Source: an uncultured Actinomycetes bacterium (lineage in GTDB: Bacteria > Actinomycetota > Actinomycetes > Nanopelagicales > Nanopelagicaceae). From it: a stretch of DNA of 48,366 nt. Below the pieces are notes generated by a model. The model did not search any database. It saw nothing but the letters and a program-made list of their open reading frames with translations, and had not been told where the DNA came from. Of this stretch, positions 25,510 through 32,719 are shown piece by piece. Both the position numbers and the translations under genes were made by a program. Location: assembly GCA_903933585.1 (NCBI GenBank), contig CAIZKO010000076.1, forward strand, positions 1-48,366, read 5' to 3'. Each line of letters starts with the position of its first letter. The first letter of the stretch is position 1.

Positions 25510-26181
25510 ATGGCCAAGGTTCCCAGCTGCGAGGTTGTATTGGTGCGCCATGCTCACTCAACCGCCAATCTCAAGGGGATTCTGGCTGGTCGTGATAACC
25601 GAGTAGGGCTCTCGCCCCGAGGCAAGATTGAGGCAGAAGAGTTAGCAACCCTCCTTCAATCCAGTGAGTTCGACGCGATTTACTCATCCCCGCTACGGCG
25701 TTGCAGAGAGACAATTGCTCCACTTCTTGCGCGCCGGGCGCAGAAGGTAGAGTTTTTAGATGGTCTGATTGAGATGGAATATGGGCGATGGTCCGGGAAA
25801 TCATTGCCACTACTTGCAAAAGAGGATCTTTGGAAGACGATTCAAAGCCGTCCCAGCACCGTTCGCTTCCCAGGCGGAGAAAGTTTTTCGGAGATGTCAG
25901 TCCGTGCTAATCAAGCTGTACTTGCTCAGTCATCGGGGAAGCGTCGAATATTGGTGGTATCCCATGGTGATGTCATTAAATCCATCGTGGCCTTCCACCT
26001 TGGCCTTACCTTGGATCTCTTTCAGAGAATCGCGATTGATCCCGCATCCGTATCGACGATTCGACTTCCGGCCTCACAAATAATTCAAGTAAATTCAACC
26101 GCGCATCTTTCGAGGGGCGCAGCAGGACCCAAGGCTAAGCGTGATCGCTTTACCTTGGGTGGGGGAGAGGGAAGGAAATGA
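25510..26181 (+). CDS. Histidine phosphatase family protein (phosphoglycerate mutase-like, MSMEG_4193 type)
   Basis: Phosphohydrolase of 223 residues with the phospho-histidine motif LVRHAHSTAN near the N-terminus, YSSPLRRCRET, the acid residue region LIEMEYGRWSG and the second catalytic His in VVSHGDVIKS. It looks active. Substrate is unknown. It overlaps the DUF3090 gene by 4 nt (ATGA) and heads a run, phosphatase-DUF3090-SCO1664-mshC, that is conserved across actinobacteria, including Mycobacterium. The C-terminal 40 residues are basic and less conserved. Confidence 0.9.
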   Translation: MAKVPSCEVVLVRHAHSTANLKGILAGRDNRVGLSPRGKIEAEELATLLQSSEFDAIYSSPLRRCRETIAPLLARRAQKVEFLDGLIEMEYGRWSGKSLPLLAKEDLWKTIQSRPSTVRFPGGESFSEMSVRANQAVLAQSSGKRRILVVSHGDVIKSIVAFHLGLTLDLFQRIAIDPASVSTIRLPASQIIQVNSTAHLSRGAAGPKAKRDRFTLGGGEGRK

Positions 26182-26741
26182 GTAGATTTATATATAACCA
26201 TGAGAACGTTTCACGGTGCATCGTAGGAACGGTTGGTCTCCCTGGAGAACGCCAATTCTTTCTGCAGGTTGTATCCGAACAGGAGACTACCTGTGTAGCA
26301 ATTGAAAAGTCACAAGCCATAGCGCTCTCTGAACGGTTACGACTGATGCTGCGGGAGCTACGCAGAAATCAATTGGCTAGCCTCGATGAACTCAACGTGG
26401 CACTCGAGCGCGACGATACTGCCTTGGAATTTCCCATCACTGAAGATTTTCGGGTGGGAGTAATAGGGATCAGTTGGGATCAAGATACCCAACGCATTCT
26501 CGTTGAAGCCCAGGCGATAGGTGATGAGACCCTTACTGAATTGCTTGATGATGATGAGGCGGCGCTCTTGGAGGATGCGCCCGACCTTCTCTCTTTCAAA
26601 TTACGCATTCACCAAGCTCGCTCCTTCTGCGACAGAACCGATGCGGTCGCCGCCGCCGGGCGTCAGCCCTGCCCTTTCTGTGGGCTACCAGTTGACCCTC
26701 TCGGACATCTCTGCCCGCGCGCAAATGGATATCGCCGTTGA
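26178..26741 (+). CDS. DUF3090 family protein
   Basis: A 187-residue protein of unknown function found in actinobacteria. The N-terminus is rich in beta structure (RCIVGTVGLPGERQFFLQVV). The C-terminus has a zinc-ribbon-like CPFCGLPVDPLGHLCPRANG, with three Cys and a His available to hold a metal. It overlaps both neighbours by 4 nt (ATGA upstream, TTGA downstream), so the three proteins are probably made together and may form a complex. Confidence 0.88.
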   Translation: MSRFIYNHENVSRCIVGTVGLPGERQFFLQVVSEQETTCVAIEKSQAIALSERLRLMLRELRRNQLASLDELNVALERDDTALEFPITEDFRVGVIGISWDQDTQRILVEAQAIGDETLTELLDDDEAALLEDAPDLLSFKLRIHQARSFCDRTDAVAAAGRQPCPFCGLPVDPLGHLCPRANGYRR

Positions 26742-27430
26742 CACCTGTACAGAAAATAATTGAGGGCGGCGAATTGCAGGTAGAAGGACGCTTTGTAGAT
26801 GCCTCCAATGCCACGCTCTTCGCTAAATGTGTCATGGGGGAGGAGGAAGTGGCGGTTATTTACAAGCCAATAGCAGGCGAGCGCCCTCTCTGGGATTTTC
26901 CAGATGGAAACTTGGCTCAGCGTGAATTAGCTGCGTATCTCCTTTCGGAGGCGCTCGAGATGCATCTTGTTCCTTTTACAATTATGCGCGATGGGACCTT
27001 CGGCCCTGGAATGGTGCAGGAGTGGATTGAAATTGACGAAGAGTTGGACGTCGTCGAATTAACTAGTAGTGCGAACGAACGCATCCGTCAGATGGCTCTC
27101 TTCGACGCCATCATCAACAACACAGATCGTAAATATGGGCATATCCTCCCAACCAAAGATGGCGCCATCTATGGGTGCGATCATGGGGTAACTTTTCACA
27201 CCGACCCGAAACTTCGCACCGTTATATGGCAATTTGCGGGTCAACAGTTCTCCGCGAGTGAACTGCAGGTGCTACGCAGCGCCCGGGAGCTCGCGCAGCG
27301 GAGTACGGAGGGCCTCATATCTCCTGCGGAAGTTTCCGCTCTGAAATCCCGGATAGAAGACCTCCTCGCTACGGGTACCTTTCCGGAGCCGAGCGAGGAT
27401 TGGCCAGCCGTCCCTTGGCCGCCTTTTTAG
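26738..27430 (+). CDS. SCO1664 family protein with a PI3/PI4-kinase-like fold
   Basis: A 230-residue protein with kinase-like hallmarks: YKPIAGERPLWDFPDG (candidate ATP-binding Lys), RELAAYLLSEAL (candidate Glu), ALFDAIINNTDRKYGHIL (catalytic-loop Asp and Asn as in PI-kinase/HipA-like folds) and YGCDHGVTFH (metal Asp). It appears catalytically competent, but its substrate is unknown. The start is TTG in the TTGA overlap with the DUF3090 stop. mshC follows after 16 nt. Confidence 0.85.
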   Translation: MTPVQKIIEGGELQVEGRFVDASNATLFAKCVMGEEEVAVIYKPIAGERPLWDFPDGNLAQRELAAYLLSEALEMHLVPFTIMRDGTFGPGMVQEWIEIDEELDVVELTSSANERIRQMALFDAIINNTDRKYGHILPTKDGAIYGCDHGVTFHTDPKLRTVIWQFAGQQFSASELQVLRSARELAQRSTEGLISPAEVSALKSRIEDLLATGTFPEPSEDWPAVPWPPF

Positions 27431-27446: not shown

Positions 27447-28697
27447 ATGGAAATTTTAAAGAACCCTTGGCCCAGCCCATCTCTTCCACATATCGACCAC
27501 CAGGTGCCTGCCTTGCGATTGCATAGTACGAGTGGACCCTTTGAAATTTTGCCCGGCTCAGAGCAGAGAATGTATGTCTGCGGCATTACTCCATACGACG
27601 CGACTCATCTTGGGCACGCCGCTACCTACCTAACCTTTGATCTCATCAATAGGTACACCCGATTAAGTGGTGGTTCCATGCACTTTGTAGAAAATATTAC
27701 CGATATCGATGAGCCACTCTTGGTGCGAGCAGAGCGAGATGGCTCCGATTGGCAAAGTTTGGCGCAGAAGGAGACCGACCTCTTCGCTGCCGATATGGCT
27801 GCACTGCGAATTCTGGCCCCGGAGTGGTTCGTCCCCGCAACGCAGGTCATGGATCTTGTTGACCAGGCGATTTCCGCAATGGAGCAGAATGGCTTTGTTT
27901 ATACCCTTGAAGGGGATTTCTACTTTCGAACGAAGGAGCTTTTAGCCGATCTGCCTTACCCCGAAGCAGAGTGCTTGCGCATCTTCGGTGAGCGTGGAGG
28001 AGATCCAGAGCGGAGCGGCAAGGAGCACCCACTTGATCCCGTTCTCTGGATTGCCAATAAAGAGGGGGAGCCTGGTTGGCAGTCATCGCACGGCTTCGGT
28101 CGTCCCGGCTGGCATATCGAATGCGCTGTCATAAGTTTGCGATACCTCTTGGGCGAAGATTTTCTCACCGGAGATTCAACGCGGTCATCTCTTATAGATA
28201 TCCAGGGTGGCGGGAGTGATCTAATTTTCCCACACCACTTCATGTCGGCGATTCAAGTTAAGGCCATCACTGGAGCGCAATTTGCGCGGGCGTATGTGCA
28301 TTCCGGGATGATCGGTCTTGATGGTGAGAAGATGAGCAAGAGCAAGGGTAATTTAGTCTTCGTTTCAAAACTTCTTGAAGAGGGAGTAGATCCCGTAATC
28401 ATCAGATTTGCATTACTACGAGATCACTATGCCTCTGACCGCATGTGGAGCCAAGAGATCTTGATTTCTGCAACGTCGGATGTCGCTCGAATTAGAATGG
28501 CGCTCTCGCGAAATGAAGTTGCGCCAACCGCTGCTGTCGTAGCCGAAATCATCACCGCCCTGAGCGAGAATCTTGATACCCCCAAGGCAATGGCGGCGAT
28601 CTTTACCTGGGTAGATGCGACCGAGTCAGGCTTAGTCGGAGGCTCTACAGGAGAGTTGGCCAGAGCTTTAGATAGCGCTTTGGGTCTCGCCTTCTAG
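27447..28697 (+). CDS. mshC: Cysteine:GlcN-Ins ligase of mycothiol synthesis
   Basis: ATP-dependent ligase joining cysteine to glucosaminyl-inositol, the third core step of mycothiol synthesis. At 416 residues it is a class I tRNA synthetase paralogue. The zinc/HIGH region reads YVCGITPYDATHLGHAATY and the second motif is KMSKSKGN. CITPYDATHLGHA distinguishes MshC from cysteinyl-tRNA synthetase, which is longer and has CGPTVYxxxHIGN. GWHIECAVIS provides further zinc ligands. Its presence implies that the organism uses mycothiol. Confidence 0.95.
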   Translation: MEILKNPWPSPSLPHIDHQVPALRLHSTSGPFEILPGSEQRMYVCGITPYDATHLGHAATYLTFDLINRYTRLSGGSMHFVENITDIDEPLLVRAERDGSDWQSLAQKETDLFAADMAALRILAPEWFVPATQVMDLVDQAISAMEQNGFVYTLEGDFYFRTKELLADLPYPEAECLRIFGERGGDPERSGKEHPLDPVLWIANKEGEPGWQSSHGFGRPGWHIECAVISLRYLLGEDFLTGDSTRSSLIDIQGGGSDLIFPHHFMSAIQVKAITGAQFARAYVHSGMIGLDGEKMSKSKGNLVFVSKLLEEGVDPVIIRFALLRDHYASDRMWSQEILISATSDVARIRMALSRNEVAPTAAVVAEIITALSENLDTPKAMAAIFTWVDATESGLVGGSTGELARALDSALGLAF

Positions 28698-30860: not shown

Positions 30861-31787
30861 GTGTCAGACCAGAAGACCGAACGGCTCATCAACCTCACGA
30901 TGGCGCTCCTTGCCACGAAGCGCTTTCTCAGCAAGGGTGAGATATTTCAACAGGTCGCTGGATATGTGGGCACTCCCGAGACAAAAGAGCGCATGTTCGA
31001 GCGTGACAAGGATGATCTACGCAAGCTCGGCATCTCCATACAAGTCGGAACTCACGACCCACTCTTTGATGACGAACCGGGATACCGAATTCTAGAGAGT
31101 GAATATGAGCTCGATATTGGGGCACTCACTCCGACTGAACTGTCTTATCTCTCCTTGGCGGCAACCATCTGGCGCAATCAACTCTTCTCTGCCAGCGGTG
31201 CCCTGGCTCTAGTAAAGCTCGATGCTCTCGGTGGCACCGCTCTTCGCGAAGATTTCGGTCATGCCACGCTCTCGTTGGAGAACGAAACCCCACTCTTTCC
31301 CGCACTCTGGGACGCGCTCACCGAATCTCAAAACATCTCTTTCACCTACCGCAGCAAGATCACGAGCACTCGACATGTCTCGCCGTACGGTTTAACACTC
31401 TGGCACGGCACATGGTATCTAGCTGGAATAGATCTCGAGAAGAATGAGTTACGAGTATTTCGCGTATCTCGCATCACTTCTGAGATCACCCTTGAAGGAA
31501 AGATCGGAGCCTTTAAGGTTCCAGATGACTTTCGCATCGAACAACACCTCATCATGTTGCAGCCCGAACCACAGACGCACTTCACGGCACGTGTGCGAGT
31601 GGGTCGGTGCCACAGTCTGCGCTCCAAATCCAAGATCACTAATGTCGATGCCGAATGGGATCGTTTAGAGTTCTCGCTCGGAAATAACTGGCGCGAAGAG
31701 ATTCTTTGGTTTGGGGCGGATCTTGTTTTGGAGAGCCCCGCCGAAAACGCTGCGGAGATCATGGCACTTTTACGGAGCAAACTATGA
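30861..31787 (+). CDS. pafB: PafB, WYL-domain transcription regulator (DNA-damage response)
   Basis: The 308-residue protein has an N-terminal winged helix-turn-helix (ERLINLTMALLATKRFLSKGEIFQQV, ERDKDDLRKLGI) and a central WYL domain (ISFTYRSKI...VSPYGLTLWHGTWYLAGIDLEKNELRVFRVSRI). With PafC it forms the PafBC activator of the LexA-independent mutagenic DNA-damage regulon described in mycobacteria. The GTG start is fixed by the leaderless -10 box. Its stop overlaps pafC as ATGA. The pupylation genes that give it its name are not adjacent here. Confidence 0.93.
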   Translation: MSDQKTERLINLTMALLATKRFLSKGEIFQQVAGYVGTPETKERMFERDKDDLRKLGISIQVGTHDPLFDDEPGYRILESEYELDIGALTPTELSYLSLAATIWRNQLFSASGALALVKLDALGGTALREDFGHATLSLENETPLFPALWDALTESQNISFTYRSKITSTRHVSPYGLTLWHGTWYLAGIDLEKNELRVFRVSRITSEITLEGKIGAFKVPDDFRIEQHLIMLQPEPQTHFTARVRVGRCHSLRSKSKITNVDAEWDRLEFSLGNNWREEILWFGADLVLESPAENAAEIMALLRSKL

Positions 31788-32719
31788 GTGAGACCGCCCT
31801 AGACCGAGTGGCACGTGCCCTCAATTTGATTCCCTTTATCGCTAGCAACCCCGGATTGTCTGTGGTCGAAATTGCGTCACGATTCAATTCGACGCCAACA
31901 CAAATCTCCAAAGATCTATCGCTTCTTCACATGTGCGGGCTACCTGGTTACTCACATCTGGAATTGCTGGATATCGATTATGAAGATCCGAATTATGTAT
32001 CAGTTACAGAGGCGCAGGTCTTGGATCAGCCACGTTCGCTCACCCAGATCGAAGCGCTCACGCTCGTGCTAGGGCTGCAGTTGCTCGGTGAACTTGCCTC
32101 AGATCAGAGTGAAGCTCTTGCGATTTCTGCTTTGCAATTACGAATAAGCAATCTCTTTGGCGAACAGTTGGCTGGAAAGGTGACTGTAGCGGACGCTATT
32201 GTTGACTCACCAATAGCAAGAAAGATTTCTCAAGCGATATCTCACCATCAGCACTTGGTCATTCATTACACCTCTGCTTCGAGTGATTCAGTGAGTGACC
32301 GTGAAATATTTCCGCTGGAGATTAATTACCATAATGGAATTGGGTATTTGAGCGCCTTTGCTACCGAAGCTAGGGAGTTGCGCACCTTCCGCTTGGATCG
32401 CATAGACGCAATCTCCGTGGGCACATCAGATCCTGAATTTATCGAAACCGTAGTACGCCCAGGTGGCGGTCAAGAGTTAAGCGATATTGAAATTGAGATG
32501 GGGCGCGATGGCTTCTTCTTCATAGAAAAACATAACGAAATTGTTACCTCCTTCCACGAGATCGGGGAGCGCTTTCGAATAACGTTAAGGGTCACCCCTG
32601 GAGAATGGATAACCCGTACATTGCTGGCTTGGCCCAGCCAGATAACTGTTCTCCGTCCCACCGACCTCGCGGATGCTATTCGGGAACGAATCGCCAGCGC
32701 CTTAGCCAATTACCACTAA
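31784..32719 (+). CDS. pafC: PafC, WYL-domain transcription regulator
   Basis: Partner of PafB, 311 residues with the chosen start. N-terminal winged helix MSETALDRVARALNLIPFIASNPGLSVVEIASRFNSTPTQISKDLSLL is typical of PafC, and the WYL domain follows (LVIHYTSASSDSVSDREIFPLEIN...LRTFRLDRID). ATG 31784 overlaps the PafB stop. The ORF-track start at 31706 lies inside pafB and adds unrelated sequence. The two halves remain separate genes, unlike the fused PafBC of some Micrococcales. Confidence 0.93.
   Translation: MSETALDRVARALNLIPFIASNPGLSVVEIASRFNSTPTQISKDLSLLHMCGLPGYSHLELLDIDYEDPNYVSVTEAQVLDQPRSLTQIEALTLVLGLQLLGELASDQSEALAISALQLRISNLFGEQLAGKVTVADAIVDSPIARKISQAISHHQHLVIHYTSASSDSVSDREIFPLEINYHNGIGYLSAFATEARELRTFRLDRIDAISVGTSDPEFIETVVRPGGGQELSDIEIEMGRDGFFFIEKHNEIVTSFHEIGERFRITLRVTPGEWITRTLLAWPSQITVLRPTDLADAIRERIASALANYH

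Follow-up and report, generated by a model that had tools for sequence, protein, structure and literature searches.

The window, i.e., the whole 48,366-nucleotide stretch of DNA that was analysed, derives from a genome of 1.53 Mb in 135 contigs (92.6% complete), whose closest relatives are Nanopelagicales-type freshwater actinobacteria. Three genes on its forward strand run into one another and, after a short gap, into mshC, as follows:

25510..26181, + strand: histidine phosphatase (MSMEG_4193 / Rv2135c type), ATG start, 223 aa; catalytic set R13-H14, R64, E88, H152
26178..26181, + strand: ATGA stop/start overlap of 4 nt, phosphatase to DUF3090
26178..26741, + strand: DUF3090 / TIGR03847 protein, ATG start, 187 aa; predicted two-part beta-beta-beta-alpha fold, weakly PUR-alpha-like; C-terminal C165-C168-H177-C179 zinc-knuckle-like tail
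26738..26741, + strand: TTGA stop/start overlap of 4 nt, DUF3090 to kinase
26738..27430, + strand: SCO1664-family (TIGR03843) putative kinase, TTG start, 230 aa; predicted PI4K type II / FAM20-like fold; K43, E63, D130, H135 and D148 invariant, as is a C-terminal PWP
27447..28697, + strand: mshC (cysteine ligase, mycothiol synthesis), 16 nt past the end of the kinase gene; CGITPYDATHLG signature

The original prediction was of three genes, each overlapping the next by 4 nt, beside mshC, and the ORF coordinates, the ATGA and TTGA overlaps and the 16-nt gap to mshC all agreed with it. The kinase frame is open over 244 codons, and the TTG at 26738 was taken as its start since the ORF list holds no earlier start codon in that frame, and a later one would cut the conserved GEL segment. 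The mshC product scored 455 bits against TIGR03447, below the cut-off of 485.1, and groups with MshC, not CysS, both in a tree and by its CGITPYDATHLG signature. Exact 4-nt start/stop overlaps recur among 78 loci of close relatives, between phosphatase and DUF3090 in 64 and between DUF3090 and kinase in at least 37, and because these overlaps repeat in relatives and the one-strand gene order repeats throughout the phylum, the arrangement is not due to chance.

The Mycobacterium tuberculosis counterpart of the trio is taken to be Rv2133c-Rv2134c-Rv2135c, and the notes to models TIGR03843, TIGR03847 and TIGR03848 treat the three genes as one system, of which one member is probably a kinase. The window trio has the same families in the same order as that catalogued actinobacterial trio, which likewise lies near mshC in Actinomycetes, and nothing essential differs; it is a Nanopelagicales-type version with 4-nt overlaps, a TTG start and a low TIGR03848 score. 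The trio is therefore not new, as each of its proteins has a TIGRFAM model and the proximity of SCO1664 to mshC had already been described (PMC4255298). That its function is not established, as the original prediction also held, was borne out by the literature searched, which assigns it none and in which Rv2134c and MSMEG_4192 turn up only in screens.

A survey of 198 genomes spread over the phylum found the trio in 82, counted as 81 by a full or split match to the kinase plus one (G164) in which a contig ends inside the operon. DUF3090 was likewise found in 82, and the kinase gene lay beside it except at contig breaks. In class Actinomycetes, kinase and DUF3090 were each present in 140 of 148 genomes, and outside the class the trio was kept in 64 sampled genomes. 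In the loci inspected, including 59 from outside the class, the order was phosphatase-DUF3090-kinase on one strand, so that the expectation of a single conserved, linked unit held up across the phylum. No other neighbour was conserved in more than about 12 of those 59 loci, apart from an opposite-strand set overlapping the trio (cluster 0), which had no Pfam match in its example and was taken to consist of shadow ORFs. Relatives of the trio are also known from Chloroflexota.

The exceptions to this order were instructive. A second phosphatase-kinase pair without DUF3090 occurs in G008 (L171:6823-8263), and in two genomes of family f69 (G238 and G267) phosphatase, kinase and mshC stand together with DUF3090 distant from the kinase; in several f69 genomes the DUF3090 gene is far from the pair (L181, L178, L180), and some carry two copies of it. 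The Corynebacterium glutamicum control had matches to kinase and phosphatase and none to DUF3090. In G254 (98% complete), phosphatase-DUF3090-mshC lie on one contig from which the kinase is cleanly absent (L175:5608-8158); its MshA is present but divergent (486 bits). From these lineages it follows that phosphatase and kinase are the two parts most often kept together and that no part is absolutely fixed, and, since G254 keeps the phosphatase without the kinase, that the phosphatase is not solely the counterpart of the kinase. Two further loci were of note for their layout: in G141, about 900 bases separate DUF3090 from the kinase (L168:6852-9008), and the Tsukamurella tyrosinosolvens 'plasmid 20' (L172) carries uppP, dapA, the trio, mshC and metH and resembles a piece of chromosome.

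The SCO1664 protein scored 282 bits against TIGR03843, well above the curated cut-off of 172.4, and its PI-kinase-like residues had led to the suggestion that it is a kinase. Its AlphaFold2 model (pLDDT 94.1, pTM 0.91) bore this out with a kinase fold and a kinase-type active site, the best PDB match being PI4KII-alpha (Foldseek 1.6e-7, probability 1.00, TM 0.62 on the query), with further matches to PI4KII-beta, Helicobacter pylori CtkA (4.7e-6) and FAM20A/C. A profile search with the family likewise returned FAM20A and PI4K2B at 2e-4, then PI4K2A, FAM20C and FAM20B. PF00454 is weak on the window kinase itself (0.04) and was matched by 40 of 45 family members (best 9.7e-14), while HipA_2 was matched by 11 of the 45 (best 8e-4). 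Across 160 aligned sequences, K43, E63, D130, R131, K132, H135, D148, R160, T161 and W164 are 99-100% conserved, and the YKP with the ATP lysine, the helix Glu63, NNxDRKxGH, DHG and the C-terminal PWP are essentially invariant; the catalytic Lys (K43), catalytic Asp (D130) and metal Asp (D148) of PI4K-II/FAM20-like kinases are thus all in place. What the family has in common with type II PI4K (PI4K2A/B) and FAM20 is the fold, the catalytic Lys, the catalytic-loop Asp-Arg and the D-(H/N)-G metal motif, but at 230 aa it is far smaller, lacks their membrane or disulphide parts and has the invariant PWP at its C-terminus. It also differs at a metal position, where the profile alignment places an invariant His135 in lieu of the metal-binding Asn that follows the catalytic Asp in PI4KII (FAM20A has an acidic residue), and therefore we term it PI4K-II/FAM20-'like', not a PI 4-kinase. 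The bacterial atypical kinases HipA and CtkA have a related kinase fold, although the SCO1664 kinase has no antitoxin-type partner and is coupled to a phosphatase. Based on the predicted fold and the invariant residues, kinase activity is very probable for the SCO1664 protein, which would be a variant of the lipid/secretory-kinase type.

The phosphatase matched PF00300 at 1.6e-43 and TIGR03848 with 193.7 bits, about 10 bits under the curated cut-off of 203.85, and other trio members also fall just under it; its MSMEG_4193-type orthology was assigned by gene order only. The catalytic residues had been described as intact, and the full set (R13, H14, R64, E88 and H152), which is that of branch 1 of the superfamily, is 99-100% conserved in 157 sequences. 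Among solved structures it is closest to PspA, a phosphoserine phosphatase (4ij5, 5.7e-18, the best), and to CobC. Rv2135c, which we take from gene order to be the M. tuberculosis orthologue, has catalytic residues in common with the window phosphatase, as do PspA and CobC, and has its RHA motif, where the superfamily usually has RHG. Rv2135c was shown to act as an acid phosphatase and not as a mutase; it hydrolyses PEP, glycerol-1-phosphate and fructose-6-phosphate weakly, and ADP, 3-PGA and glucose-6-phosphate not at all (PMC3866925).

The DUF3090 protein scored 182.3 bits against TIGR03847 (curated cut-off 117.25). The zinc-ribbon-like tail read from its sequence proved a family trait, with C165, C168, H177 and C179 kept in 158 of 158 aligned proteins, among which G20xPGxR25, E43-K44 and N183 are near-invariant; the CxxC..HxC motif had been noted earlier (PMC9425974). 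No solved relative was found by sequence search. The top 11 PDB fold matches of its model (pLDDT 86.6) were all PUR-alpha chains, albeit weak ones (E 0.02-0.2, the best 0.021, with TM 0.27-0.41 on the query), and the strand-helix parts of its two halves align with each other with a score of 19.5, compared with 13.9 for the best of 30 shuffles. These matches are suggestive of a two-repeat PUR-like fold. PUR-alpha, a nucleic-acid binder, and other PUR-domain proteins have weakly similar strand-helix repeats but not the additional zinc-knuckle-like tail, and DUF3090 may be a zinc-bearing binder of nucleic acid or of a partner.

The reading that we favour is reversible phosphorylation by a single actinobacterial unit, whose three genes are translationally coupled and have been kept by vertical descent. 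As a small atypical kinase from the PI4K-type-II/FAM20/HipA branch, the SCO1664 protein would phosphorylate a target, the MSMEG_4193-type phosphatase would remove that phosphate through a phospho-His14 intermediate, and DUF3090, a putatively zinc-bearing protein of two repeats, would bind or present the target, or couple both enzymes; in class Actinomycetes the unit would have become linked to mshC. We put the probability of such a cycle at roughly 0.45. The analysis itself shows how the genes are ordered and coupled, that the active sites are conserved and that a kinase fold is predicted; that the enzymes are active, that they have a target in common and what DUF3090 does are inferred. In its favour, kinase and phosphatase stay paired where DUF3090 is absent or elsewhere (G008, G238, G267 and C. 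glutamicum), while the kinase loss in G254, the stray DUF3090 genes of f69 and the His in place of the metal-binding Asn count against it. The target is more likely to be a molecule of general use in the cell, whether a protein or something that DUF3090 binds, than a dedicated mycothiol intermediate.

The position next to mshC had hinted at an inositol- or mycothiol-linked substrate, and a mycothiol-linked cycle, in which an inositol-containing intermediate would be the common substrate of the two enzymes, or MshC or MshA would be regulated by them, so that mycothiol synthesis is tuned, was proposed in kind by the report that SCO1664 is invariably near mshC and may belong to its network (PMC4255298). 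Of 136 genomes of class Actinomycetes, 125 do have the kinase no more than 5 kb from mshC, the adjacency survives rearrangement in G300, and this near-universal linkage argues for some tie to mycothiol, counting against a general-target cycle. The 5 genomes of family f81, which belong to two genera, have neither kinase nor DUF3090 and neither MshC nor MshA, and mshA is unlinked elsewhere in related genomes, although this co-absence represents at most one evolutionary event. The 11 exceptions within the class include contig breaks, but some are real, with kinase and trio apart from mshC (G008, f74 g167 and f68). Beyond it the trio is next to mshC in none of the 59 loci inspected, i.e., the adjacency is confined to a single class. 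Of the 64 trio genomes outside the class, 22 encode a separate MshC homologue that scores at least 380 bits, and the four examined have a CGITPYDxTH signature and branch together as sister to MshC; such homologues lie away from the trio in L187, L188, L192 and L194, and some of these genomes may make mycothiol. The other 42 have no MshC homologue at that threshold, although a divergent one may exist (G057). Co-occurrence with MshA, found in 74 of 82 trio genomes compared with 5 of 116 others (phi 0.86), was first taken as mycothiol evidence, but was dropped since the controls WhiB and PafA did equally well or better (both phi 0.93); because all three follow the same lineages, co-occurrence over the phylum has no special mycothiol signal and reflects only the general actinobacterial core. 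The mycothiol hint thus stood in part, in that linkage at the class level carries some mycothiol signal, and a cycle dedicated to mycothiol seems to us unlikely, if still worth serious thought.

The trio might instead be co-transcribed housekeeping genes with separate substrates, their order frozen by translational coupling, as would fit the cases in which the parts have come apart (the distant DUF3090 of f69, the missing kinase of G254). We consider this distinctly unlikely, as 1:1 co-occurrence, a fixed order across classes that have no other common neighbour, and a pair kept together even when duplicated (L171) are difficult to account for unless the genes work together.

There is a slim chance that the phosphatase is MshA2, removing phosphate from GlcNAc-Ins-P, with kinase and DUF3090 as regulators. 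The mycothiol literature searched names MshA2 as an activity only, with no gene, no other phosphatase lies closer to mshC throughout the class, and G254 keeps phosphatase-DUF3090-mshC after its kinase loss. However, genomes that have no MshC or MshA homologue still keep the phosphatase, the kinase partner is left unexplained, and Rv2135c hydrolyses sugar phosphates poorly, and glucose-6-phosphate not at all, GlcNAc-Ins-P being outside the substrates tried (PMC3866925). Least probable of all is a phylum-wide system in which the PI4KII/FAM20-type kinase, with its His-for-Asn metal site, and the histidine phosphatase act reversibly on nucleic acid, or on a target bound to it, with a PUR-like DUF3090 that carries zinc as their guide.

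Three other ideas were discarded. A proteasome/pupylation link was set aside as the source genome has no PafA match yet keeps the trio. A phage or defence origin was rejected in that there were no IMG/VR relatives and no PADLOC match beyond a weak one to the kinase, and a toxin-antitoxin reading was ruled out, the unit being core and vertically kept. Regarding the first, a PafB/PafC-type WYL regulator pair is kept in the window (30861-32719), with PafA not found in the 92.6%-complete genome. Regarding the second, the unannotated 'Bacteriophage sp.' MT835969 encodes phosphatase, DUF3090 and kinase (L174:8136-12774), and is probably misassigned actinobacterial host DNA.

A role in mycothiol metabolism is not implied by the phylum-wide co-occurrence, and the identity of the phosphatase with MshA2, if true, would be relevant to a step of the mycothiol pathway where a gap exists. 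The trio is a core actinobacterial unit, present in M. tuberculosis and Streptomyces, and its kinase is expected to have activity and to belong to the PI4KII/FAM20 type.
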